Below, in pieces: positions 25,033 through 40,810 of a stretch of 64,000 bases of DNA. Source of the DNA: Tenacibaculum larymnensis (GTDB lineage: Bacteria > Bacteroidota > Bacteroidia > Flavobacteriales > Flavobacteriaceae). Each line of letters starts with the position of its first letter. Within the stretch, counting starts at the first letter, position 1. Below the pieces are notes generated by a model. The model was given only the letters and a program-made list of their open reading frames with translations. It was not told the DNA's origin and searched no databases. The translations under genes were made by a program, and so were the position numbers. Location of the stretch: contig NZ_JAIWJY010000012.1 of the NCBI RefSeq assembly GCF_028829235.1, positions 1 to 64,000 of the forward strand. The letters run 5' to 3'.

Positions 25033-26079
25033 ATGAAGCATTTATTAATCACCGGAGGAGCAGGTTTTATAGGGAGTCATGTTGTAAGACGTTTTGTAAA
25101 ACAATACCCAAATTATCATATTTATAATTTGGATGCTTTAACTTATGCAGGTAATTTAGAGAATTTAAGAGATATAGAGGAATCTCCAAACTATACTTTT
25201 TTACATGGTGATATTACAGATGAAACTTTTGTTGACAAAATTTTTACAAGGTACAAGTTTGATGGGGTTATTCACTTAGCAGCAGAATCACATGTAGATC
25301 GTTCAATTACTGACCCGTTGGCTTTTGCGAAAACGAATATTTTAGGGACAATGATTTTGTTAAATGCATTTAAAAACTTATGGCAAAATAATTGGGAGGA
25401 TAAACGTTTTTACCATGTAAGTACAGATGAAGTGTATGGCTCATTAGGAGAAACAGGCTTGTTTAAAGAAAGTACTTCATACGATCCCAATTCTCCTTAT
25501 TCAGCTTCTAAAGCAAGTTCAGACCATTTTGTAAGAGCATATGGGGAAACCTATGGTATGCCATTTGTAATTTCTAATTGTTCTAATAATTATGGACCCA
25601 ATCATTTTCCAGAGAAGTTAATTCCTCTATTTATCAATAACATTATTAATAAGAAGCCATTGCCTGTGTATGGCGATGGAAATTACACAAGAGATTGGTT
25701 GTATGTTATAGATCATGCGATAGCGATTGATTTGGTATTCCACAAAGGTATAAATCATGAAACCTATAATATTGGCGGTTTTAATGAGTGGAAAAATATC
25801 GATTTAGTAAAACTACTTTGCAAACAAATGGATGAGAAACTGGGAAGGTTAGAAGGAGAAAGTGAAAAACTAATTACCTATGTTAAAGACCGTCCAGGAC
25901 ACGATTTACGATATGCAATTGATGCTTCTAAAATAAACGAAGAACTGGGTTGGTTTCCAACAGTTACATTTGAAGAAGGCTTAGCAAAAACAATTGATTG
26001 GTTTTTAAAAAACAAAGAATGGATGGAAAATGTAACAAGTGGAGTATACCAAGAGTATTATCAAAAACAATATAAATAA
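25033..26079 (+). CDS. rfbB: dTDP-glucose 4,6-dehydratase
   Basis: Converts dTDP-glucose to dTDP-4-keto-6-deoxyglucose. Extended [22 protein letters not shown] at the start, [11 protein letters not shown], the [14 protein letters not shown] motif with the catalytic Thr-Asp-Glu, [20 protein letters not shown] with the Tyr-Lys pair, and [18 protein letters not shown]. The 348 residues are complete. rfbA follows after 7 bases. The product can go to rhamnose or to 4-amino sugars; the VioA-like aminotransferase at 28412 and the lack of rfbD in the window point to the latter, at least in part. A dead tail of a second rfbB lies at 40846-41052. Confidence 0.96.
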
Positions 26080-26086
26080 AAAAAGG

Positions 26087-26956
26087 ATGAAAGGAATAAT
26101 ATTAGCAGGAGGTTCAGGAACAAGGTTGCACCCATTAACTTTAGCAGTTAGTAAGCAATTACTACCTATTTATGATAAACCAATGATTTATTACCCTTTG
26201 TCGGTATTAATGCTAGCGGGGATAAAAGAAATTTTAATTATTTCGACGCCTCACGATTTGCCAAATTTTAAGCGTTTATTAGGAGATGGTTCCCAGTTAG
26301 GAATTGCGTTGAGTTATGCAGAGCAACCAAGTCCTGATGGTTTGGCACAAGCTTTTATTATAGGGGAAGATTTTATTGGAGATGAAGATGTTTGTTTAGT
26401 GTTGGGAGATAATATTTTTTACGGAGCAGGTTTACAAAAATTATTAAGTGAAGCTGTACAGACGGTAAAAGATGAGCAAAAAGCAGTTGTTTTTGGTAAT
26501 TATGTAAACGATCCAGAACGTTATGGCGTAGCTGAATTTGATGCCGATCAAAATGTGATAAGTATAGAAGAAAAGCCAAAAGAACCAAAATCGAATTTTG
26601 CGGTGGTTGGTTTGTACTTTTATCCAAACTCTGTAATTAATATAGCAAAGAAAGTAAAACCTTCTCATCGAGGGGAGTTAGAAATTACTTCAGTAAATCA
26701 AGCCTATTTAGGGCGAGAAGAACTTAAAATGCAAATTTTAAGTAGGGGATTTGCATGGTTAGACACTGGAACCCATGAAGCCTTAACCGAAGCTACTGAG
26801 TTTGTAAAAGCGGTAGAAAAACGTACAGGGCTTAAAATAGCTTGTTTAGAGGAGATTGCATTACACTACAAATGGATTACAAGAACACAATTACAACAAC
26901 AAGTAGAAGGCATGAAAGGTGATTACTTTGAGTACCTGAAACGAATTTGTAAATAG
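26087..26956 (+). CDS. rfbA: Glucose-1-phosphate thymidylyltransferase
   Basis: Makes dTDP-glucose from dTTP and glucose-1-phosphate. I choose the ATG at 26087, after the rfbB stop and preceded by AAAAGG: it gives 289 residues starting [20 protein letters not shown], the exact family start; an upstream in-frame ATG inside rfbB would add an unrelated tail. Further motifs: [45 protein letters not shown], and [13 protein letters not shown]. It pairs with rfbB directly upstream. Confidence 0.96.
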
Positions 26957-26967
26957 TAGCACATTTA

Positions 26968-28410
26968 ATGACTAGTTCTTTAAAAAAGAAGACTTTCGCT
27001 GGATTCTTATGGACATTCCTCGATGTTTTTGTAATAAGAGGAAGTGTTTTTATTGCAATGATTGTTTTGGCACGATTATTAGGGCCAGAAGATTTTGGTT
27101 TGGTAGGTATGATAGCTGTATTTATTGCTATTGGGAAGTCATTGACTGATAGTGGTATGTCGCATTCGTTAATTCGTGCAACTAGACCGGGGCAAAAAGA
27201 TTTTTCAACAGTTTTTTATATAAACTTAGTTATGAGTCTTATTGTATATGCATTAATATACATCTTAGCCCCATTTATTGCAGACTTCTTTGGATATCAA
27301 GTGTTAATAAATCTTGTACGAACTTACTGCGTTATCTTTATTATAATAGCTTTTTCTGCTGTGCAATTAGCCATATTAACCCGGAACATGAAGTTTAGAG
27401 CTATTGCTTTATATAATATTCCAAGTAACCTTATAGGGGTTTTAATAGGAATTAGCTTAGGGTATTTAGGGTATGGAGTATGGAGTATTATATGGATGTA
27501 TTTAGCGATAGAGATTGTAAGAACTATACTGTTATGGGTTTTTTCCGATTGGAAACCTAAGCTTATATTTTCATGGAGGAAATTCAGAGAGCATTATGGT
27601 TTTGGGTATAAATTAATGTTGTCAGGATTACTAAATACACTTTTTCAGAATATTTATAATGTATTAATAGGGAAGTTTTACTCTGCTCAATCTTTAGGGT
27701 ATTATGAACGTTCTAAGCAATTTACAACTTATCCTTCATCAACTTTAACAGGGGTAATCTCTAAGGTAACTTATCCCATGCTTTCTAGTATAATAAATGA
27801 TAAAGAACGTTTAGAAAAAACATACCGTAATTTATTAAAAAGCTCATTTTTTATTATTGCACCCATAATGTTAGCAACAGCAGCTGTGGCAGAACCCTTA
27901 TTTATATTAGTTTTGGGTGAAGAATGGCTGCCTGCAGTTATTTACTTTCAGATTTTAAGTTTAGCCATGATGCTTCATCCAGTACATTCGTTTAATTTAA
28001 ATATTCTAAAAGTATTTGGAAGAAGTGATTTATTTTTAAAAATAGAAGTTATAAAAAAAATAATTACTGTTTTAGTTGTTTTAGTTGCTTTTCAGTTTGG
28101 TGTTATAGGATTAGTTTGGAGTAGTGTATTTACTTCATTTTCATCTTTGTATGTAAATATGCATTATTCAAGCAATTTAATTAACTATCCGGTCAAGCAA
28201 CAAATTATCGATTTGGCAATAACACTCTTAATAACCTTAGGCATTGCAGTTTTGATAAACTTATTAGTACAAGCAATGGAAGATTTTCATACCATATACC
28301 AAATAATAATACCTATAGGGGTTGGAACTTTATGCTATTTAAGTATAAATTATATATATAAGTCGAGTCCTATCCATACCATTATAAACCTTATAAAGAA
28401 TAGAAAATAA
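26968..28410 (+). CDS. Wzx-type polysaccharide flippase (MOP superfamily)
   Basis: Flips undecaprenyl-linked repeat units across the inner membrane. The 480 residues contain about 12-14 hydrophobic helices; the N-terminal segment with VLARLLGPEDFGLVGM is typical of the WzxC/polysaccharide-synthesis group. RSKQFTTYPSSTLTGVISKV in the centre is also characteristic. It starts 11 bases after rfbA and ends one base before the aminotransferase gene. The presence of Wzy and Wzz-like proteins supports a Wzx/Wzy pathway. Confidence 0.9.
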   Translation: MTSSLKKKTFAGFLWTFLDVFVIRGSVFIAMIVLARLLGPEDFGLVGMIAVFIAIGKSLTDSGMSHSLIRATRPGQKDFSTVFYINLVMSLIVYALIYILAPFIADFFGYQVLINLVRTYCVIFIIIAFSAVQLAILTRNMKFRAIALYNIPSNLIGVLIGISLGYLGYGVWSIIWMYLAIEIVRTILLWVFSDWKPKLIFSWRKFREHYGFGYKLMLSGLLNTLFQNIYNVLIGKFYSAQSLGYYERSKQFTTYPSSTLTGVISKVTYPMLSSIINDKERLEKTYRNLLKSSFFIIAPIMLATAAVAEPLFILVLGEEWLPAVIYFQILSLAMMLHPVHSFNLNILKVFGRSDLFLKIEVIKKIITVLVVLVAFQFGVIGLVWSSVFTSFSSLYVNMHYSSNLINYPVKQQIIDLAITLLITLGIAVLINLLVQAMEDFHTIYQIIIPIGVGTLCYLSINYIYKSSPIHTIINLIKNRK

Positions 28411-28411
28411 T

Positions 28412-29491
28412 ATGATTCCTGTAACCAAACCCTTTTTACCTCCTAAAAAAGAGTATTCAACCTTATTAGATAAGGTATGGAGTTCACAGTGGTTGACCAA
28501 TATGGGGCCGCTATCAAAAAAACTTGAAGCAGAAATAGCAAATTATCTTCAAGTAAAAGAAACACTTTTTGTAACCAATGGCACAATAGCCTTACAAATG
28601 GCGTTAAAAGCTTTAGATGTTACAGCTGAGGTTATTACAACACCATTTTCTTTTATAGCAACAACAAGTAGTGTTGTGTGGGAAGGTTGTAAACCTGTTT
28701 TTGTAGATATTGATGAGCAAAGTTTTAATATAGATGCCAATAAAATTGAAGCAGCCATTACGCCTAATACACAGGCAATTTTGGCAACACATGTTTATGG
28801 TAACCCGTGTGATGTTGAAAAAATACAGGTTATTGCAGATAAGTATAAATTAAAAGTAATTTATGATGCTGCGCATGCCTTTGGAGTAAAGGTAGGTGGG
28901 AAATCGATATTTGGATATGGAGATGTTAGTACTTGTAGTTTACACGCCACAAAATTATACCATAGTATAGAAGGAGGCTTGGTGTTTGCAAATAATGAGC
29001 AAGTATTTAGAAAATTAGCATCTATGCGTAACTTTGGTTTTGCAGGCCCAGAGGCATTTTCAGAGTTAGGGATAAATGGAAAAAATTCAGAATTTCATGC
29101 AGCAATGGGGCTCGTTAATTTGAAATATATTGAAGATATACATAAAAAACGAAAAACGTTAACTGAGTTGTATGATGAAAAATTGCTTGGAACAACAAAA
29201 ATAACAAAGCCTATATGGCATCAACAAGCCAATTTAAATTATGCCTATTACCCTATATTGTTAGCTACAGAAGCACATTTATTAAAGGTATTAGAAAACC
29301 TAAACAAAAATAATATCCAAGCACGACGTTATTTTTACCCATCTTTGGCCAATAGTACGCCCTATTTGCCTAAACAAAATTTTAGCATAACAGACAGTGT
29401 AGCAAAACGCGTACTGTGTTTACCTTTGTACTATGATTTAACAGCGGTAGAGGTAAATAAGATTATAGCAACCATATTAAATAGTTTGTAA
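28412..29491 (+). CDS. DegT/DnrJ/EryC1/StrS sugar aminotransferase (VioA-like)
   Basis: PLP-dependent aminotransferase, likely acting on the dTDP-4-keto-6-deoxyglucose made by RfbAB to give a 4-amino-4,6-dideoxy sugar. The active-site lysine is residue 181 in CSLHATKLYHSIEGG, a version of the motif seen in VioA-type enzymes rather than in PglE/WecE types. Also present: TNGTIALQMALKALD, TTPFSFIATTSSVVWEGC, and YDAAHAFGV. 359 residues, complete. It abuts the next gene (WbqC family) with no gap. VioA-like is a judgement from motifs; a 3-aminotransferase is possible. Confidence 0.85.
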   Translation: MIPVTKPFLPPKKEYSTLLDKVWSSQWLTNMGPLSKKLEAEIANYLQVKETLFVTNGTIALQMALKALDVTAEVITTPFSFIATTSSVVWEGCKPVFVDIDEQSFNIDANKIEAAITPNTQAILATHVYGNPCDVEKIQVIADKYKLKVIYDAAHAFGVKVGGKSIFGYGDVSTCSLHATKLYHSIEGGLVFANNEQVFRKLASMRNFGFAGPEAFSELGINGKNSEFHAAMGLVNLKYIEDIHKKRKTLTELYDEKLLGTTKITKPIWHQQANLNYAYYPILLATEAHLLKVLENLNKNNIQARRYFYPSLANSTPYLPKQNFSITDSVAKRVLCLPLYYDLTAVEVNKIIATILNSL

Positions 29492-30193
29492 ATGAAAGTA
29501 GCGATAATGCAACCTTATATTTTCCCCTATTTAGGATATTTTCAATTAATAAAATCGGTTGATGTATTTGTTTTTTATGATGATGTAAACTTTATTAAAA
29601 GAGGATGGGTAAATAGAAACAAAATATTAGTTAATAATAAAGAAAAATTGATAAGTTTCCCTTGTATAGCGGCGAGTCAAAATAAATTAATTAATGAGGT
29701 GACAGTAGACCTAAACGATAAACAGTATGTAAAATTATTACAAACTATAAAGCAAGCTTATGTTAAGGCTCCTTATTACTCTCAGGTGTACCCAGTTATA
29801 GAGGAGGTTTTTTTTAGCTCGGCTACAACTATAGCAGAACTGGCTATAATAAGTATAAAAGCAATAACAGCGTATTTAAATTTAGATACTATCTTTTATA
29901 ATTCTTCTGCATCATTCTCAAGTTCTAAAGGGGTTGATAAGGCAGACCGCTTAATTACTATAACAAAACAATTAGGTGCAGATACATATATAAACGCAAT
30001 TGGAGGAACAGAGATTTATACAAAAGATTATTTTAAAGAAAATAAAGTGAGCTTGTATTTTTTAGAACCAGAATTATTCAATTATAAACAGTTTAATGAA
30101 GAGTGTATTAAAGGGCTTTCCATTATAGATATACTAATGTTTAATGATAAAGAACAAGTAAATGAAATGTTAAAAAATTATGATTTAGTATAA
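29492..30193 (+). CDS. WbqC-family protein
   Basis: A 233-residue protein of the WbqC family, found in many O-antigen and capsule loci beside aminotransferases. The family start KVAIMQPYIFPYLGYFQLIK (residues 2-21) and the VFVFYDDVNFIKRGWVNRNKI segment are unmistakable. The biochemical function of this family is not firmly known to me; its constant pairing with 4-aminotransferases suggests it modifies the amino group. The ATG follows the aminotransferase stop directly, and its own stop overlaps the ATP-grasp gene by one base. Confidence 0.88.
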   Translation: MKVAIMQPYIFPYLGYFQLIKSVDVFVFYDDVNFIKRGWVNRNKILVNNKEKLISFPCIAASQNKLINEVTVDLNDKQYVKLLQTIKQAYVKAPYYSQVYPVIEEVFFSSATTIAELAIISIKAITAYLNLDTIFYNSSASFSSSKGVDKADRLITITKQLGADTYINAIGGTEIYTKDYFKENKVSLYFLEPELFNYKQFNEECIKGLSIIDILMFNDKEQVNEMLKNYDLV

Positions 30194-31470
30194 TGAAGAA
30201 AAATATATTGATATATCCTTGTGGGACAGATAATGCTATAGAAATATATGAGTCACTAAAGTATAGTGTTCATTTAAATGTTTATGGAGGAAACTCTAAA
30301 AATAGTATTGCTGATTTAATTTATGAAAATGATATTATAAGAATACCTAACATTAATGAGAATGAGTTTATAGAACAATTAAATGAAGTGATTCGGAAGT
30401 ATGATATAAAATTGATATTTCCCACACATGATGATGTAGTCTATTTCTTTTCTCAGAATAAAAATAAAATCAATACTCAATTAGTTGGGGCAGGTACTTT
30501 AATTAATGAAGTTTCAAGACATAAAAGTAAAACCTATAATTTTTTTAAAGAAAATGATTTTGTTCCTAAAGTATATCATGACTTAAGCGAAATAAAATCA
30601 TTTCCTGTTTTTTGTAAACCAGATAAAGGGCACGGAAGCATTGGTGCTTTTAAAATAAATACGGAGTCTGAATTAAAAGATACATTTTTTAGTACCAATG
30701 TAATAACCGAGTTTTTGCCAGGAGCAGAATATACGGTAGATTGTTTTTCAGATAAAAAAAATAATTTATTATATGCCTTCCCTAGAAAGCGTCATTTAAT
30801 ACGCAATGGTGTTTCACATATCAATATAGAGCCAGAACAAGGGGTAATTGACAAATGTTTTGAAATAGGAAAAGAAATTAATCAAAAATTAAATTTCAAA
30901 GGACTTTGGTTTTTTCAAGTAAAACAAGATAAAAATGGAAACCTTAAGTTACTGGAGGTTTGTCCGAGAATGGCAACAACGATGGCTTTTGATAGATATA
31001 AAGGTGTAAACCTACCTTTATTGTCTGTTTTTGCATATTTAGATATGGATGTTGAAATCAACGTTATTCATGAAAATATAGAGCTATATCGATACTCTTT
31101 AACCAAAGCAAGGTATAGATTTGAGTATGAAAATGTATATATTGATTTTGATGATACTATTATTATAAATGGAAAGGTTTGTATTGATGCAATTGCATTT
31201 ATATATCAGGCAAAAAATCAAAATAAAAAAGTCTATTTGATAACCAAGCATGAGTTTGACTTAAAAGAAACTTTAAACAAATATCATATATCATCTCATT
31301 TATTTGATGAAATCATTCATTTAAATATGGATGATTTAAAATACAATTTTATGACAAAGCCTTCATCTATTTTTATAGATAATTTCTATAAAGAAAGAAA
31401 AGAGGTCTTTGAAAATACCCAGATACCAGTTTTTGATGTGGATGGTATTAAATCTTTAATTAAAAATTAA
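30193..31470 (+). CDS. ATP-grasp ligase fused to a HAD-like domain
   Basis: Two domains in 425 residues. Residues 1-310 form a PylC/carbamoyl-phosphate-synthase-like ATP-grasp unit: PVFCKPDKGHGSIGAFKI with the ATP-binding lysine at 142, TEFLPGAEYTVD (about 172-183), and LLEVCPRMATT (253-263), with Glu and Arg where metal and phosphate ligands are expected. Residues 315-425 look like a HAD hydrolase: VYIDFDDTI (motif I, 315-323), LITKHEFDL and IFIDNFYKERKEV (motif IV). Such enzymes usually join a carboxylate to an amine. Its one-base overlap with wbqC and the aminotransferase upstream suggest it ligates an amino acid or other acid to the new amino sugar or makes that acyl group. Substrates are unknown. 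Confidence 0.82.
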   Translation: MKKNILIYPCGTDNAIEIYESLKYSVHLNVYGGNSKNSIADLIYENDIIRIPNINENEFIEQLNEVIRKYDIKLIFPTHDDVVYFFSQNKNKINTQLVGAGTLINEVSRHKSKTYNFFKENDFVPKVYHDLSEIKSFPVFCKPDKGHGSIGAFKINTESELKDTFFSTNVITEFLPGAEYTVDCFSDKKNNLLYAFPRKRHLIRNGVSHINIEPEQGVIDKCFEIGKEINQKLNFKGLWFFQVKQDKNGNLKLLEVCPRMATTMAFDRYKGVNLPLLSVFAYLDMDVEINVIHENIELYRYSLTKARYRFEYENVYIDFDDTIIINGKVCIDAIAFIYQAKNQNKKVYLITKHEFDLKETLNKYHISSHLFDEIIHLNMDDLKYNFMTKPSSIFIDNFYKERKEVFENTQIPVFDVDGIKSLIKN

Positions 31471-31475
31471 TAACG

Positions 31476-32591
31476 ATGAAAATAGCATTTTTCTCATTTG
31501 CAGATATAGATAATTTTGGTGATATTCTTTTTTCACATATTTTCAAAATGGAGTTAGAAAAGAGAGTTAACAATTTATCTATTGATTTTTATACGCCTAC
31601 AGATTATAGTGTGGAAGGTATTGATTATATAGCTTATACGAGAGAAAAAATTGAAAAAGGGAAATATGATGCACTGATTGTTTTTGGGGGAGAAGTAATT
31701 CATTTGTTTGATGAAAGAACTTGGAAACCTATTTATAAGAAGAACAATCAAATGTTAGAAACTGAACTACCTTCGGATGTAATTTTTGATTGGACTGATA
31801 TGTCTGAACCTTTTAAAGCTTGGATATCAGTAGGTGTTAGACCCATTGAGAACGAAGCGGATTACAATAAGATACAAAAAGCAATAGAAGATTTAGATTA
31901 TGTATCGGCTAGAGGAAATTTGTCCAAAAAAATATTAGAAAATCAAAAACTTCAGGTTAATAATTCAAAAATTGAAATAACACCTGATATGGGCTGGTTA
32001 TTTCCTAACCTGTTGGATTATACCAATACAAGAAATACATTTTATAAAAAATATATTAAGGAAGAGAAATACTTGGTTTTTCAGATTAATAATATTACTA
32101 AAGAAGAAGCCAAAGAAATTGCAGATTATTTATATGAGTTTTATGAAAAAGAAGGACTAAAAATAGTTTTATTACCTGTTATTAGACCCTGGGAAGATTA
32201 TAAATATCTTAACATGATTTATGATGAATATCCTTCTCACTTTTTGCTTTTAGATAACAATTTATCAATTTTGGAAATTGCTGATATATTGATTCATGCA
32301 GATTTGGTATTAACATCTTCTTTGCATGCAAATATTACGGCCCTGTCTGCCGGTATTCCTGGTGGAATAATAAACAAATGGCAAGGAACTAAATTACAAG
32401 ATCTGTATGGACATCAATTTAGGTTGAACATGTTAAAACATAACTTATCCGAAATACCAAGTTTGCTTCAAGATTTGGAAAAAGAAAAACAAACGCAATC
32501 ACTGAAATTATACGCGGAATTTATGAAGCAATCTCTTGTTATTGTTTTTGATAATCTAATAGAGAACATGAAAAATAAAAGAAATGGATAA
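31476..32591 (+). CDS. Polysaccharide pyruvyl transferase family protein
   Basis: Likely adds a pyruvate ketal to a sugar of the repeat unit (CsaB-like family, PF04230). Typical points: an N-terminal strand FFSFADIDNFGDILFSHIF, IVFGGEVIHLF near residue 70, and the C-terminal LTSSLHANITALSAGIPGG near residue 290. 371 residues, complete. It overlaps the following GT2 gene by 8 bases. Some family members have other roles, so the pyruvyl donor (phosphoenolpyruvate) is by family only. Confidence 0.82.
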   Translation: MKIAFFSFADIDNFGDILFSHIFKMELEKRVNNLSIDFYTPTDYSVEGIDYIAYTREKIEKGKYDALIVFGGEVIHLFDERTWKPIYKKNNQMLETELPSDVIFDWTDMSEPFKAWISVGVRPIENEADYNKIQKAIEDLDYVSARGNLSKKILENQKLQVNNSKIEITPDMGWLFPNLLDYTNTRNTFYKKYIKEEKYLVFQINNITKEEAKEIADYLYEFYEKEGLKIVLLPVIRPWEDYKYLNMIYDEYPSHFLLLDNNLSILEIADILIHADLVLTSSLHANITALSAGIPGGIINKWQGTKLQDLYGHQFRLNMLKHNLSEIPSLLQDLEKEKQTQSLKLYAEFMKQSLVIVFDNLIENMKNKRNG

Positions 32592-33471
32592 TATTGTTGT
32601 ATCGATTTGTTGTATTACATATAATCACGCATCTTTTATAAGAGAATGTTTAGATGGTTTTTTAATGCAAGAATGTGAATTTGGTTTTGAGGTACTGATT
32701 CATGATGATGCTTCTACTGATGGTACAGCAGATATCATCCGAGAGTATCAAGAAAAATATCCTTATATTATTAAGCCTGTTATTCAAAAGGAAAATCAAT
32801 ATTCAAAAGGAGTAAGAAACATTAATTCAAAATATAATTTTTCTAGGGCAAAAGGAAGATATATTGCTATGTGCGAAGGAGATGATTATTGGACAGACCC
32901 TCATAAATTACAAAAGCAAGTAAACTTCATGGAAGGGCATTTGGACGTTGTACTAACATTTCATGATAGAAGTATCATAAATGATAAAGATGAAGTTAAA
33001 GAGGTTAAATTGTTTAATATAAAAGATACTGACAAAACTATAGTTAAAAATATTATACATCAATTTACGCCTACATTGACCATGATGTTTAAGACATCTG
33101 CTCTACAAGACTATTTTAACATTAACTTAGTAAAGGCGAAAGTATTTGGAGGAGATGCATTTTTAAGAGCTTATTTATCAACAAAAGGAAAAATAGTGTA
33201 TTTAAATTTTAATGGAGCAGTATACAGAATGCATGGAGGAGGTGTTCACAATTCACTAAGCTTAATTTCTAAAAAAGAAAAGGCAATAGAAACAAGATTG
33301 TCTGTAATAAAATATATTGAAGGAGTCAACAAAAGAGATGTTTATAAATCTATCCTGAAATTTTGTTTTGTGATTATGAGAGACTCGTTAAAAGAAAGTC
33401 AGTATGGTGTTTGTTTTAAATATTTAATTAAAACAATAAATTTTAGTTTTAAATATATATTTATAATTTAA
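32584..33471 (+). CDS. Glycosyltransferase family 2
   Basis: Cytoplasmic GT-A enzyme adding one sugar of the repeat unit. Motifs: VVSICCITYNHASFIRECLD at residues 4-23, LIHDDASTDGTADII, and the metal-binding EGDDYWTDPHKLQKQ near residue 98. 295 residues. The ending contains a hydrophobic stretch that may touch the membrane. It overlaps the pyruvyl transferase gene by 8 bases and its stop shares a base with the wzy start. Donor unknown. Confidence 0.88.
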   Translation: MDNIVVSICCITYNHASFIRECLDGFLMQECEFGFEVLIHDDASTDGTADIIREYQEKYPYIIKPVIQKENQYSKGVRNINSKYNFSRAKGRYIAMCEGDDYWTDPHKLQKQVNFMEGHLDVVLTFHDRSIINDKDEVKEVKLFNIKDTDKTIVKNIIHQFTPTLTMMFKTSALQDYFNINLVKAKVFGGDAFLRAYLSTKGKIVYLNFNGAVYRMHGGGVHNSLSLISKKEKAIETRLSVIKYIEGVNKRDVYKSILKFCFVIMRDSLKESQYGVCFKYLIKTINFSFKYIFII

Positions 33472-34682
33472 TGATAACTAATTTAAAGATAAGACTACAA
33501 AATTATTATATTATAATAATTATAGTTGGTTTTCTAGCATCTAGTATAATACCTTCTATTTTTGGTATTGGTATTAATTTAAATATAATATATAGAGCTT
33601 GTATCGTTTTTTTCTCTTCTATGATTATATTAATTAATTTATCTTCATTATCTTTAAAAAAACAATTTTTATTACTCCTGCTTTTTCTGTTATTGTATTT
33701 ATTATCAGTTGTTTTTGACTTATATATAAATCAAATTAGGCTTTGGCCTACAAGAACTCCATTATATTATTTACAGTATTTAATAGGAGCTGTAATTTTT
33801 CCTGTTTTAGCATTAGTAAGTATAGATTATAAGGTTATAAATTTCGACTTTATTCTTAATGGTATTTATATTATACTATTTATTTTGTTATTGTTATCTA
33901 TAAATTTAAGAATAGAATCATCTAGCGGAGGAAGAGATGTGGGGGATTTGGATATAGGAGTTTTATTATATGGACAATATGGTGCTACAATGTGTATACT
34001 TTCTATGTATCAGTTTTTTACAACAAGTAGAGTACTAACGAAGTTACTTTATAGTATTGGCTATTTAGTAGGTTTTTTAGCTATTTTTATATCAGCGAGT
34101 CGTAGTCCTTTGCTTGCATTGTTTTTGGTTACTATAGTATTTGTTTTAACAAGAACAGGAAAAACAAAAGCACTTTTTTTTATAAGTTTTTTAGGCTTAC
34201 TTATCTACTTTTTTTTCATAGATATCTTATCTTTTATTGGAACTTATATTAATAGTAATTTTTTAGATCGTATAATTTATGCCTTAGAAGGAGTAAGTAC
34301 AGGTCGACAATCATTATTTCAAACTGCATTTATGGAGTTTGTAGATGCTCCATTTCTTGGGAGTGCTTTTTTAATTCAAACAGGAAATGCAGTTGGTATA
34401 TATCCTCATAATTTAATAATAGAGGCTTTTATGGCTTTGGGGTTTATAGGAGGAACTCTGTTTTTAATAATAATATTAAAAAATATAAAAAAAGTATTTA
34501 TAATATTAAATGCCAAAAGTGATAAATATGTTTGGATAGGACTTTTATACTTACAGTTTTTAATATTTGGTATGTTTTCTGGAAGTTTATATACGAGTGA
34601 TTTCTTTTGGGTATATACAGTACTTATAGTAGGAGTTTCTATAAAGAAAGATAATTTAAAAATAAGTAAAAATGAAAACTAA
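33471..34682 (+). CDS. O-antigen/capsule polymerase (Wzy-like)
   Basis: A 403-residue polytopic membrane protein with about ten to eleven helices and one larger loop; FISASRSPLLALFL, ASLGR-like charged loop RIIYALEGVSTGRQSLFQ near residue 265, and IYPHNLIIEAFMALGFIGG match the O-antigen ligase/polymerase family. No other candidate polymerase is in the locus, so I call it Wzy; WaaL ligase is the alternative. It overlaps neighbours by 1 and 11 bases. The DNA is especially AT-rich, as is common for wzy. Confidence 0.85.
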   Translation: MITNLKIRLQNYYIIIIIVGFLASSIIPSIFGIGINLNIIYRACIVFFSSMIILINLSSLSLKKQFLLLLLFLLLYLLSVVFDLYINQIRLWPTRTPLYYLQYLIGAVIFPVLALVSIDYKVINFDFILNGIYIILFILLLLSINLRIESSSGGRDVGDLDIGVLLYGQYGATMCILSMYQFFTTSRVLTKLLYSIGYLVGFLAIFISASRSPLLALFLVTIVFVLTRTGKTKALFFISFLGLLIYFFFIDILSFIGTYINSNFLDRIIYALEGVSTGRQSLFQTAFMEFVDAPFLGSAFLIQTGNAVGIYPHNLIIEAFMALGFIGGTLFLIIILKNIKKVFIILNAKSDKYVWIGLLYLQFLIFGMFSGSLYTSDFFWVYTVLIVGVSIKKDNLKISKNEN

Positions 34683-35481
34683 GCTTATTTTTATTATGTT
34701 GTTGTATTCTATATGTTTTTTTTCGCAAGACATGAATGAGTTTTCTCTTGTGCTTCAAGAAGGGAGATATAAAGAAAAAACAATAAATAGAATAGCGAAT
34801 GTTATTAATACAAAGAAGTATTATTTTATAGGAAAGTACTACATAGATAGAAAAAATGAAGGAATTATAAATTTAAAAGACTTAGAAGTAGGTTTAAATA
34901 GAATAGTTCCAAAGGATACGGAAGGATTTTTGGTTTTAGATCTTGAAAATAAGCTATATCATGATTTAAAAAAAGATACTACTTCTACTTTATTTAAAAA
35001 AGCAGAAGTGGCTTTTATAGATATGATAAAGTACGTCAAAAAACACAGACCTAAAATTAAAATTTCAGTTTACGGAATCCCTTTTACAACCTATTGGGAC
35101 AAAGTGAAAACGAAAAAATACTATAAAATAGTTAGTAACTTAGACTTTATTTCACCTCATTTGTATATATATTATCCCAATGAACAATTTAAAAAAGAAA
35201 AGAATATTTTATATTTAAAAAAGAACTTATCATTGTTTTTAGATTATAAAAAAAAATTAGGTGTTGAGGTCTATCCTTTTATATGGTACAAAATACACCC
35301 CTCTAACAAGAAATATAAAGGTAAAATATTATCTAGTAATGAAATAAATGATATTCTTAAAGTTATAAGAAATGAAAACTATGAAGCCTGTAAAGTTAAT
35401 GGAGTTTTATGGTGGGAGCCCATGTTACGAAAACCTTTTGATATTGATGGAAAACTAATTTCAACCTTTATTATAAACTAA
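34672..35481 (+). CDS. Secreted protein of unknown function, possible TIM-barrel glycan hydrolase
   Basis: I do not recognise a family with certainty. The 269 residues start with a signal peptide (MKTKLIFIMLLYSICFFSQ). Regularly spaced strands end in acidic or aromatic residues: EGFLVLDLENKLYHDL (84-99, with Asp90 and Glu92), ISVYGIPFTTYW (131-142), LDFISPHLYIYYPN (157-170), VEVYPFIWYKIHP (198-210), and VLWWEPM (245-251). This layout resembles a TIM-barrel glycoside hydrolase, with the DLE position recalling the catalytic acidic pair of GH56-type enzymes; this is inference. The gene overlaps wzy by 11 bases and sits one base before a GT4 gene, so it belongs to the operon and may trim or depolymerise the polymer. 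Confidence 0.6.
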   Translation: MKTKLIFIMLLYSICFFSQDMNEFSLVLQEGRYKEKTINRIANVINTKKYYFIGKYYIDRKNEGIINLKDLEVGLNRIVPKDTEGFLVLDLENKLYHDLKKDTTSTLFKKAEVAFIDMIKYVKKHRPKIKISVYGIPFTTYWDKVKTKKYYKIVSNLDFISPHLYIYYPNEQFKKEKNILYLKKNLSLFLDYKKKLGVEVYPFIWYKIHPSNKKYKGKILSSNEINDILKVIRNENYEACKVNGVLWWEPMLRKPFDIDGKLISTFIIN

Positions 35482-37812: not shown

Positions 37813-38418
37813 ATGTATAAAAACTATATCAAACGTATCTTAGATTTTATTGTAGCTTTTTTAGGATTACTGATTTTAAGTCCTATTTTTTTTATAGTTA
37901 CTATTGGACTATTTTTAGCAAATCAAGGAAAACCATTTTTCTTTCAAAAACGTCCAGGAAAAAATCAAAAGATTTTTAAAATCATCAAGTTTAAATCAAT
38001 GAATGATAAAACAGATGAAAATGGAAACCTTTTGCCTGATGCAGACCGCTTAACAAAAATGGGAAGCTTTGTTCGTAAAACATCTTTAGATGAGATTCCA
38101 CAACTACTAAATGTGTTAAGAGGAGACATGTCGATTATTGGCCCTAGACCATTAAGAACTTATTATTTACCTTTGTATAGTAAGGAGCAAAAAAACAGGC
38201 ATAATGTTCGTCCAGGAATTACGGGATGGGCTCAAGTAAATGGTAGAAATGCAATTTCATGGACTAAAAAGTTTGAATTGGATGTGTACTATGTTAATAA
38301 CATTAGCTTTGGTCTAGATTTAAAAATATTTTTTCTTACTGTTAAAAAGGTTTTTGTAAGAGAAGGAATTAATCAAGAAGGTAAAGTGACTGTGGATAAG
38401 TTTAATGGTACTAATTAG
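37813..38418 (+). CDS. Initiating phosphoglycosyltransferase (PglC-like)
   Basis: Small monotopic enzyme that moves a phospho-sugar from a UDP-sugar to undecaprenyl phosphate, starting the repeat unit. One N-terminal re-entrant hydrophobic helix (about residues 10-33), then the bacterial sugar transferase core: [40 protein letters not shown] with the Asp-Glu pair, IIGPRPLR, and [14 protein letters not shown]. At 201 residues it is the PglC size class, without the extra helices of WcaJ/WbaP. The pglD- and pglE-like genes next to it suggest UDP-diacetylbacillosamine or a related 4-amino sugar as donor. Confidence 0.92.
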
Positions 38419-38422
38419 AGGT

Positions 38423-39049
38423 ATGGAAAATTGTATAATAGTTGGGGCTGGTACGTATGGGGAAGTATATGCTGAGTACTTAAAAGAAGAATATAATATA
38501 TTAGGTTTTATAGACGACAACCCTAACATAGTCAAAAATAAAGGGCTTAATGTTTTGGGAGACTTTAACTTCCTGTTGAACAACATAGAGAGATCAACTA
38601 ATGTATTTATCCCTATAGGAAATAATGAAGTCCGTTATAATCTTTTAAATAAAGTAATTAAAGCCGGGTTTAAAACACCTAGTTTTATTCATAGAAACAC
38701 CAATATACATGCTTCAGTAGAAATTGGAAAGTGTGTTTATATTTTATCAGGCGTGAATATTATGCCTTTAACTAAACTTAAAGATTTTGTGTTAATAAGT
38801 ATGGGGGTTAATATCGCTCATCATGCAGTCATTGATGAAGGCTGTTTTATTTCTCAAGGTTCTAATATAGGAGCTTCGGTTTATATGGAAAAAAAAGTCT
38901 TTTGCGGAATAGCTTCAACAATTATGACAGGAGTAAAAAATGTAGGAGAGAACTCTTTAATAGGGGCTGGAGCAGTTATAATCAGAGATGTGCCTGATAA
39001 CGCTGTAGTTGTAGGAAACCCTGGAAAAGTGATAAAATACAATAAATAA
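38423..39049 (+). CDS. PglD-like sugar O/N-acyltransferase (left-handed beta helix)
   Basis: Acetylates the 4-amino group of a UDP-amino-sugar. I start at ATG 38423 (MENCIIVGAGTYGEVYAEYL), 4 bases after the previous stop; an ATG at 38405 lies inside that gene. Residues 1-85 form the small Rossmann-like PglD N-domain (GFIDDNP), and 90-208 the hexapeptide-repeat domain with GVNIAHHAVIDEGCFISQGS (catalytic-type His) and GENSLIGAGAVIIRDVPDNA. 208 residues, usual length. pglE-like follows after 3 bases. Confidence 0.9.
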   Translation: MENCIIVGAGTYGEVYAEYLKEEYNILGFIDDNPNIVKNKGLNVLGDFNFLLNNIERSTNVFIPIGNNEVRYNLLNKVIKAGFKTPSFIHRNTNIHASVEIGKCVYILSGVNIMPLTKLKDFVLISMGVNIAHHAVIDEGCFISQGSNIGASVYMEKKVFCGIASTIMTGVKNVGENSLIGAGAVIIRDVPDNAVVVGNPGKVIKYNK

Positions 39050-39052
39050 GTT

Positions 39053-40189
39053 ATGTTAGAAAAAATATGGTTATCCTCTCCACACATGGGAGGTAGCGAA
39101 CAAAAATATGTACAAGAAGCTTTTGACACCAATTGGGTAGCTCCATTAGGACCCAATGTAAATGGTTTTGAACAAGATTTAGAAGGGTATGTTGGAGAAA
39201 ACTCAAAAGTAGCTTGTTTAGCTTCTGGTACTTCTGCTTTACATTTAGCCCTAATATTAGCTGGAGTAAGCAATGGAGATGAGGTGTTGTGTCAAAGTAT
39301 GACCTTTTCCGCTTCTGCAAACCCAATAACGTACCAAGGGGCTATTCCTGTCTTTGTAGATAGTGAAGAAGAAACTTGGAATATGTGTCCAAAAGCGTTA
39401 GAGGAAGCTATCAAAGAAGGTATGGCTAAGGGGAAAAAACCAAAAGCAATCATAGTGGTACATTTATATGGGATGCCTGCTAAAATGGATGAAATTGTAG
39501 CGATTTCTAAAAAATACGGTATAACCTTAATAGAAGATGCGGCGGAAGCATTAGGTTCAACCTACAAAGGACAAAAATGTGGTACGTTTGGTGATTTCGG
39601 AATTTTATCATTTAACGGAAATAAAATAATCACAACTTCTGGTGGAGGTGCTCTGGTATGTAAGAATGAAGAAGATAAACAAAAAGTCATTTTTTTAGCA
39701 ACCCAAGCACGTGATAATACCCCTCATTACCAACATTCACACATAGGATATAACTATCGTATGAGTAATATTGTGGCAGGTATAGGTCGTGGTCAAATGG
39801 AGGTGTTAGATAAACACATTGGTTTTAGAAGAGCTAATAATCAGTTTTATCAAGAAGTATTCAAAAATGTAGATGGAATAAGAGTTTTAACAGAACCAAC
39901 ATCAGAATATTTCTCTAATCACTGGTTAAGTGCTGTAGTTATAGAGGAAAGTATAACGGGTTTTTCAAGAGAAGAGCTACGTTTAGCTTTAGAAAAAGAG
40001 AATATTGAATCTCGTCCCTTATGGAAACCAATGCATTTACAACCTGTTTTTAAAGATTGCAAATATTACGGAGCTAACATCTCAGAAAAATTGTTTGAAG
40101 AAGGATTATGTTTACCATCAGGTTCCAATCTCATAGACGAAGATAGAGTACGAATAAAAGGAGCGATTCAAAAACTAATAAACTTATAA
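39053..40189 (+). CDS. UDP-4-keto sugar aminotransferase (PglE-like, DegT/DnrJ/EryC1/StrS)
   Basis: PLP enzyme expected to aminate UDP-4-keto-6-deoxy-GlcNAc. N-terminal WLSSPHMGGSEQKYVQEAF and AFDTNWVAPLGPN are the PglE group hallmark; LASGTSALHLALILAGV binds PLP phosphate; active-site lysine 191 is in SFNGNKIITTSGGG. 378 residues, complete. With PglD- and PglC-like genes upstream, and the PglF/WbpM-type 4,6-dehydratase at 51880-53784, a full UDP-diNAcBac branch is present in the window though split in two places. Confidence 0.9.
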   Translation: MLEKIWLSSPHMGGSEQKYVQEAFDTNWVAPLGPNVNGFEQDLEGYVGENSKVACLASGTSALHLALILAGVSNGDEVLCQSMTFSASANPITYQGAIPVFVDSEEETWNMCPKALEEAIKEGMAKGKKPKAIIVVHLYGMPAKMDEIVAISKKYGITLIEDAAEALGSTYKGQKCGTFGDFGILSFNGNKIITTSGGGALVCKNEEDKQKVIFLATQARDNTPHYQHSHIGYNYRMSNIVAGIGRGQMEVLDKHIGFRRANNQFYQEVFKNVDGIRVLTEPTSEYFSNHWLSAVVIEESITGFSREELRLALEKENIESRPLWKPMHLQPVFKDCKYYGANISEKLFEEGLCLPSGSNLIDEDRVRIKGAIQKLINL

Positions 40190-40255: not shown

Positions 40256-40810
40256 ATGATTTTTAAACAAACAGATATTCCTGAAGTTGTAGTTATTGAG
40301 CCCAAGGTTTTTGGAGATCAAAGAGGGTATTTTTTTGAATCTTTTAATCAAAAAGAGTTTGAAGAAAATATTGGACGAATAAATTTTGTTCAGGATAACG
40401 AATCCAAATCAGTTTTTGGAGCATTACGAGGATTACATTTTCAGAAGCCTCCATTTGCACAAGCTAAGTTAGTGAGATGTATTCAGGGTAAGATATTAGA
40501 TATTACGGTTGATATTCGAAAGAACTCACCTACTTATGGGGGATGTTTTTCAGTAGAGTTATCCGAAGAAAATAAAAAACAATTATTTATACCGAGGGGA
40601 TTTGCACATGGATTTGTAACTTTATCTAAAGAAGCTATTTTTGCATATAAAGTGGATAATTGGTATGCACCAGAATACGACTCTGGAATTATTTGGAATG
40701 ATCCTACTTTGAATATTGATTGGAAAATTAATTCAGAAGAGGTAATACTTTCTCCAAAAGACCAACAACTTTTAACTTTTAAAGAGCTAGAAACTCCATT
40801 TATTTATTAG
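40256..40810 (+). CDS. rfbC: dTDP-4-dehydrorhamnose 3,5-epimerase
   Basis: Epimerises dTDP-4-keto-6-deoxyglucose at C3 and C5. Cupin fold: VFGDQRGYFFESFNQKEF near residue 19, the catalytic-region GALRGLHFQKPPFAQAKLVR with the active His, DITVDIRKNSPTYG, and FIPRGFAHGFVTLS. The 184 residues are typical. It stands 15 kb from rfbAB, separated by 66 bases from the pglE-like gene, and is followed by the dead tail of another rfbB. rfbD, needed for rhamnose, is not in the window. Confidence 0.94.
   Translation: MIFKQTDIPEVVVIEPKVFGDQRGYFFESFNQKEFEENIGRINFVQDNESKSVFGALRGLHFQKPPFAQAKLVRCIQGKILDITVDIRKNSPTYGGCFSVELSEENKKQLFIPRGFAHGFVTLSKEAIFAYKVDNWYAPEYDSGIIWNDPTLNIDWKINSEEVILSPKDQQLLTFKELETPFIY

Follow-up and report, generated by a model that had tools for sequence, protein, structure and literature searches.

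What reactions are encoded by three adjoining genes of Tenacibaculum larymnensis that specify a VioA-like aminotransferase, a WbqC-family protein and a fusion of an ATP-grasp domain to a HAD-like domain? The genes belong to a surface-polysaccharide locus within a stretch of 64,000 nt (the window), positions 1–64,000 of the forward strand of contig NZ_JAIWJY010000012.1, and a preliminary description of this DNA had proposed that they form a locked three-gene pathway for the N-acylation or N-aminoacylation of an amino sugar. The open reading frames (ORFs) do indeed run head to tail on the + strand, at positions 28412–29491 (aminotransferase, 359 aa), 29492–30193 (WbqC, 233 aa) and 30193–31470 (fusion, 425 aa); the first junction is gapless (stop codon TAA at 29489–29491, start codon ATG at 29492) and the second is a one-base overlap (TAATG, 30191–30195). 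Taken as a whole, the evidence leads us to favor, with moderate confidence, the idea that these genes are a cassette for the acylation of 4-amino-4,6-dideoxy-D-glucose (Qui4N).

The first gene encodes a member of the DegT/DnrJ/EryC1 family of fold-type I pyridoxal phosphate (PLP) enzymes (Pfam DegT_DnrJ_EryC1, PF01041; E-value 1.8e-91) that shares 42–46% identity with VioA from E. coli O121, O123 and strain S3. Upstream of it on the + strand are the genes that would supply its substrate, namely those for the dTDP-glucose 4,6-dehydratase RfbB (25033–26079, assigned from the ORF and its sequence character) and the glucose-1-phosphate thymidylyltransferase RfbA (26084–26956, assigned by similarity; its listed ORF begins with GTG at 26039), followed by the gene for a Wzx-type flippase (26968–28410), which lies immediately 5' of vioA, as in the O7, O116 and O123 clusters of E. 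coli. Both the similarity and the position after rfbB, rfbA and wzx fit known VioA proteins, and we consider it very probable that the aminotransferase is VioA, the synthase of dTDP-Qui4N. The earlier proposal that the first gene makes a 4-amino sugar from the product of RfbA and RfbB, encoded upstream, is thereby supported as a predicted activity. An improbable alternative is that the enzyme makes another 4-amino sugar, for example from a keto sugar epimerized by RfbC, and that the cassette decorates that sugar instead. An rfbC gene is present at position 40256 of the same locus, such that an L-configured keto sugar could serve as the substrate of the aminotransferase; moreover, the assignment of DegT enzymes from sequence is difficult, and this one falls under every NCBIfam equivalog cut-off. 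However, the identity to the E. coli VioA proteins and the order rfbB-rfbA-wzx-vioA, common to E. coli O116 and O123, oppose this idea.

The role of WbqC is suggested by four E. coli VioA clusters read from RefSeq annotation, two with wbqC and two without. The O121 cluster has the order rfbB-rfbA-VioA-WbqC-GNAT, and the O123/O186 cluster the order rfbB-rfbA-wzx-VioA-WbqC-D313-GNAT-MaoC, where D313 is a short PLP-like protein; in both, an N-acyltransferase follows WbqC directly or one gene on, and neither contains an ATP-grasp gene. WbqC is absent from the O7 cluster (vioA-vioB) and from the O116 cluster (vioA-acyltransferase), and E. coli O7 carries Qui4NAc. The Qui4N of O116 is likewise simply N-acetylated, as cited in PMC3210612 from its ref 146. 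The Qui4N of O121 bears N-acetylglycyl, as cited in PMC3210612 from its ref 147, that of Shigella dysenteriae 7 also bears N-acetylglycyl (PMC10609480), and that of O123 bears N-[(S)-3-hydroxybutyryl]-D-alanyl (PMC10609480). Thus, the presence of WbqC tracks that of an amino acid on N4 of Qui4N, a correlation and not proof, given that there are two clusters with the gene and two without. In these clusters the GNAT enzyme encoded after WbqC would cap the amine of the amino acid. (Note that D313, which adjoins WbqC in O123, whose Qui4N carries D-alanine, is a divergent PLP-enzyme-like protein of 311–330 aa that is encoded between WbqC and the fusion in about 12 loci from many phyla and is absent from the window. 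Examples at L081:9061-10002, L101:8803-9756 and L240:11801-12775, the last from E. coli O123, have no Pfam or NCBIfam match.)

The WbqC protein of the window is a full-length member of its family (PF08889; E-value 7.4e-66, 222.5 bits against a cut-off of 21.3, positions 1–217 of 218) and is 41% identical to both the O121 and the O123 WbqC. Within a 28-member clade that includes these three proteins, residues Q7, P8, Y9, P12, Y13, G15, Y16, D24, R42, N43, Y90, N168, G171, G172, Y198, Q200, S210 and D213 are invariant and would be obvious targets for mutation. An AlphaFold2 model built with 46 relatives has a predicted local distance difference test (pLDDT) score of 96.4. When this model was compared with solved structures by a second-look aligner, BshC (4wbd) ranked first and the BshC core fold was recovered (VIA Z 14.8; root-mean-square deviation 3.5 over 224 of 233 residues), the next family being the tyrosyl-tRNA synthetases (Z 7.9), with other HUP-class enzymes lower. 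BshC is a putative ligase of bacillithiol synthesis that adds cysteine to glucosaminyl-malate (GlcN-malate) by a mechanism that is unknown, and it carries a coiled-coil dimerization domain (PMC4360819). MshC catalyzes the equivalent step in mycothiol synthesis, and the cyclodipeptide synthases, which share the fold class, take aminoacyl-tRNA as substrate (PMC2922099).

We do not claim that WbqC is a homologue of BshC. HHalign comparisons with BshC (full-length, core-only and by segment) showed no significant relationship, with probabilities below 1% against 53 BshC sequences; Pfam returns PF08889 alone for WbqC and not the BshC profile PF10079; a protein of 233 aa has neither the coiled-coil domain nor the length of about 530 aa that typify BshC; and phmmer and profile searches with WbqC as the query retrieved no relative among solved structures. 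Because the profile-profile comparison was not significant, we class WbqC as a protein that may work like BshC and not as BshC itself. Together with the aminoacyl-Qui4N of O121 and O123, the BshC-like fold makes it likely that WbqC is an amino-acid-adding enzyme. This reading sits better with the evidence than the editing partner that had been entertained for WbqC alongside a transferase. WbqC proteins are still termed functionally uncharacterized (PMC5532660). (Note that a true BshC is encoded elsewhere in the T. larymnensis genome, at G000:C45:183855-184973, and that the organism probably makes bacillithiol.) The WbqC family occurs in 156 of 296 sampled genomes of the window's phylum. A second, shorter WbqC-family gene of this genome (G000:C48:15578-16141, or L002:1480-2100) lies directly 3' of a lepB-like signal peptidase gene and was treated as belonging to a distinct subfamily; short members of a comparable subfamily are common in the phylum.

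The third gene encodes two predicted enzymes in one chain. Its ATP-grasp half (residues 1–307; 30193–31113, + strand), a predicted carboxylate-amine ligase, matches ATPgrasp_Ter (PF15632; E-value 7.2e-20) and ATP-grasp_3 (PF02655; E-value 7.2e-9), as do all 72 aligned fusion relatives, among which K111, K142, E173, Q242, E255 and R259 are invariant. In a model of the fusion (pLDDT 95.2), residues 1–303 have the ATP-grasp fold and match 2pn1 (Z 28.7), PylC (Z 27.9) and biotin carboxylase (Z about 27), and the Foldseek hits include an L-amino acid ligase. The HAD-like half (residues 308–425; 31114–31470, + strand) has all four HAD motifs (DxD, S/T, K and D/DD) in 72 of 72 members: D318, D320, K383 and D396 are present throughout, position 351 is always Thr or Ser, and D321 is invariant. 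Pfam recognizes this half in only 1 of the 72 members (as Hydrolase_3), and a profile search with it against solved structures in the PDB found no match, the domain not having been fold-searched alone. Spacings of 33 and 32 residues between the motifs would appear to leave no room for a cap domain, which suggests an enzyme of the capless type. These results bear out the earlier identification of an ATP-grasp/HAD fusion, in which K142, the motif EVCPR (255–259) and the motif DFDDT (318–322) all lie at the positions that had been given for them.

To survey the fusion family we scanned one genome from each of about 85,000 species with an alignment of five fusions and found 376 relatives, of which 80 loci were kept; a scan of the same kind with a two-sequence alignment found no relative. 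The loci come from Bacteroidota, Bacillota, Pseudomonadota, Elusimicrobiota, candidate phyla and Methanobrevibacter, and the fusion is a real and widespread family. Among 81 loci, considering five genes on either side of the fusion, a VioA-like protein is encoded in 67, WbqC in 18 and the short PLP-like protein in 18, and VioA is present with WbqC absent in 48; a VioA of at least 40% identity occurs within 10 kb of the fusion in 72 of 83 loci. VioA lies within 1.5 kb of 38 of 72 fusions versus 1 of 57 single-domain ATP-grasp proteins retrieved with the same queries, and WbqC within the same distance of 14 of 72 versus 1 of 57, where the controls were drawn solely from the window's phylum and the fusions from a wider range; for this reason, and because a few loci are duplicated (L070/L079 and L071/L072), all these counts are approximate. 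Moreover, in a tree of the fusions, 15 of the 17 WbqC-linked members fall in a single 22-member clade (support 99), and the WbqC label changes 7 times, as against 15.4 times when shuffled (none of 500 shuffles was as low). The loci that bear WbqC are spread over many phyla, as would be expected of a mobile functional unit. Thus, the fusion pairs above all with VioA, and WbqC goes with one subfamily of the fusion, at about a fifth of the loci. The co-occurrence that had been predicted is therefore found; an obligate three-gene unit is not, as VioA and the fusion are the constant pair. Nor is WbqC a dedicated partner of the fusion, since VioA and WbqC are paired in the absence of the fusion in E. 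coli O121 and O123 and in some Bacteroidota; of 8 such Bacteroidota loci read by eye, 4 have a gene for a GNAT or NeuD N-acyltransferase directly after WbqC.

The abundance of loci with VioA and without WbqC raises the possibility, which we consider unlikely, that it is the fusion that joins an amino acid to Qui4N, in the manner of PylC and the L-amino acid ligases that are among its nearest ATP-grasp folds, and that WbqC is an accessory protein involved, for example, in transfer or substrate delivery. However, Qui4N is aminoacylated in E. coli O121 and O123, whose clusters include WbqC but lack an ATP-grasp gene, and the fact that the WbqC-linked fusions form a clade of their own suggests that they act on another substrate where WbqC is encoded. 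The complete conservation of the HAD motifs would also suit a fusion that leaves the amino sugar alone and makes or activates a small acid or dipeptide for attachment by another enzyme of the locus, with the HAD domain trimming a phosphorylated intermediate. A nucleotidyltransferase-like gene adjoins the fusion in Buttiauxella, which fits this scheme; the fusion is, however, tightly linked to VioA across bacteria, archaea and candidate phyla, which points to the sugar as substrate, and we regard the scheme as quite improbable.

For the Qui4N acylation cassette, we infer each catalytic step, including the action of WbqC before that of the ATP-grasp domain, the acid used and, least securely, the role of the HAD domain, from the observed gene content, order and co-occurrence, the catalytic motifs, the predicted folds and the match between WbqC and aminoacyl-Qui4N in two O-antigens. 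RfbA and RfbB would produce dTDP-4-keto-6-deoxyglucose, which the VioA-like aminotransferase would convert to dTDP-4-amino-4,6-dideoxyglucose (dTDP-Qui4N). WbqC would then form an amide between an amino acid and the 4-amino group of the sugar, as in the reaction proposed for BshC. The ATP-grasp domain would activate a second carboxylic acid by forming its acyl phosphate and would ligate it to a free amine, that being the alpha-amine of the amino acid when WbqC is present and N4 of the sugar when it is absent, as in the majority of loci; in this way the fusion would fill the slot of the capping GNAT or NeuD N-acyltransferase that adjoins WbqC in other loci. The HAD domain may remove phosphate from the incoming acid or from the product, and the finished nucleotide sugar would pass to a local glycosyltransferase. 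We think it reasonably likely that the fusion is an amide ligase of this pathway, better read as a second or alternative acylating enzyme beside WbqC; the exact order of steps is offered tentatively. The amino-sugar N-acylation or aminoacylation pathway originally envisaged is in this respect supported by the co-occurrence, the E. coli serogroups and the WbqC fold. More speculative, and in our view rather doubtful, is the notion that WbqC is a minimal BshC-fold enzyme that forms aminoacyl amides on dTDP-linked amino sugars, perhaps with aminoacyl-tRNA as the donor, as in the cyclodipeptide synthases, and that, with a two-headed ATP-grasp ligase/HAD phosphatase, it gives acyl-aminoacyl or dipeptidyl Qui4N by an undescribed, horizontally spread route of bacteria and archaea.

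A number of points weigh against the cassette as we propose it. We identified no organism that both encodes the fusion and has a polysaccharide of solved structure, and the serogroup correlation comes from two clusters with WbqC. Foldseek alone gave no match to the WbqC model with an E-value below 0.1, such that BshC surfaced only through the second-look aligner, the HHalign comparison with BshC was not significant, and the activity of BshC itself is without an in vitro demonstration (PMC4360819). The usual Mg-ligand Asn of ATP-grasp enzymes is replaced in the fusion family by Ser, Ala, Cys or Gly (position 257), so catalysis by the fusion is not assured. The rfbC gene leaves room for a different amino sugar.

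Loci elsewhere place the VioA-fusion pair in other settings. In Buttiauxella noackiae (L092:8884-11654), VioA, the fusion and the nucleotidyltransferase-like gene lie among flagellar genes, and these neighbors suggest a role in flagellin glycosylation; when E. coli was probed with the vioA-fusion stretch of Buttiauxella, vioA and flanking genes were matched and no ATP-grasp/HAD gene was. Bacillus and its relatives repeatedly show the order RmlA-RmlB-TagF-like-fusion-VioA-GT2 (L124:5714-14257 and L084:5925-14276), which suggests, again from the neighbors, the decoration of a wall glycopolymer with acyl- or aminoacyl-Qui4N. In the window, the fusion is followed on the + strand by a polysaccharide pyruvyltransferase-family gene (PST; 31476–32591; PF04230, E-value 6.1e-24) and by a gene for a GT2 glycosyltransferase (32584–33471), a candidate transferase of the decorated sugar; a GT2 gene lies immediately 3' of the fusion in 16 of 81 loci. 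The pyruvyltransferase-family gene is a possible fourth member of the cassette; apart from the window, such a gene directly follows the fusion in Moheibacter, two Sphingobacterium and one alphaproteobacterial metagenome-assembled genome, in the last of which the sequence sits in a longer reading frame of 798 aa. Moheibacter lacus has the identical order VioA-WbqC-ATP-grasp/HAD-PST-GT2, with a fusion 72% identical to that of the window, and this repetition of the gene order argues that the arrangement did not arise by chance. Further along, an ORF of 269 aa (34672–35481) has a signal-peptide-like start and no Pfam or NCBIfam match, and consecutive genes at 37813–40189 for a sugar transferase, a NeuD/PglD-like acetyltransferase and a LegC/PglE-like aminotransferase probably specify the diacetamido-trideoxyhexose with which the same polymer would be initiated.

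The aminoacylation of Qui4N is in itself known, for example from V. cholerae O43 and Providencia O4, O33 and O35, and N-aminoacylated amino sugars define many bacterial surface antigens. In the open-access literature, which leaves most subscription journals outside it, we found no function assigned to WbqC or to the fusion, no link between WbqC and BshC and no association of an ATP-grasp/HAD protein with VioA. Tying WbqC to an amino-acid-adding step would give this orphan family a first concrete, testable function and would link it to BshC, and the fusion would represent an enzyme used with VioA across bacteria and archaea. Three small soluble proteins and a single nucleotide sugar would suffice to test each step.

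Among known systems, the closest to the cassette are the O-antigen clusters of E. coli. The O121 and Shigella dysenteriae 7 cluster shares the RfbB/RfbA/VioA/WbqC set (WbqC 41% and VioA 42% identical to the window proteins) but has a GNAT gene after WbqC where the window has the ATP-grasp/HAD fusion. The O123/O186 cluster has the same rfbB-rfbA-wzx-vioA-wbqC order as the window (WbqC 41% and VioA 45% identical) and differs in having the short PLP-like protein, GNAT and MaoC and no ATP-grasp gene. The VioA-VioB pathway of O7, like the VioA and acyltransferase of O116, has VioA directly after wzx and acylates Qui4N, but does so by simple acetylation, with neither WbqC nor an ATP-grasp enzyme. 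BshC (PDB 4wbd) resembles WbqC in the predicted fold and in the proposed reaction, the addition of an amino acid to an amino sugar, but is a protein of about 531 aa as against 233 aa, with no detectable sequence homology; MshC is alike in the type of reaction proposed and is a paralogue of CysRS. Finally, PylC, the L-amino acid ligase BL00235 and 2pn1 have a fold in common with residues 1–303 of the fusion, whereas these solved relatives cover the ATP-grasp half only and the fusion has its Mg-site Asn replaced.

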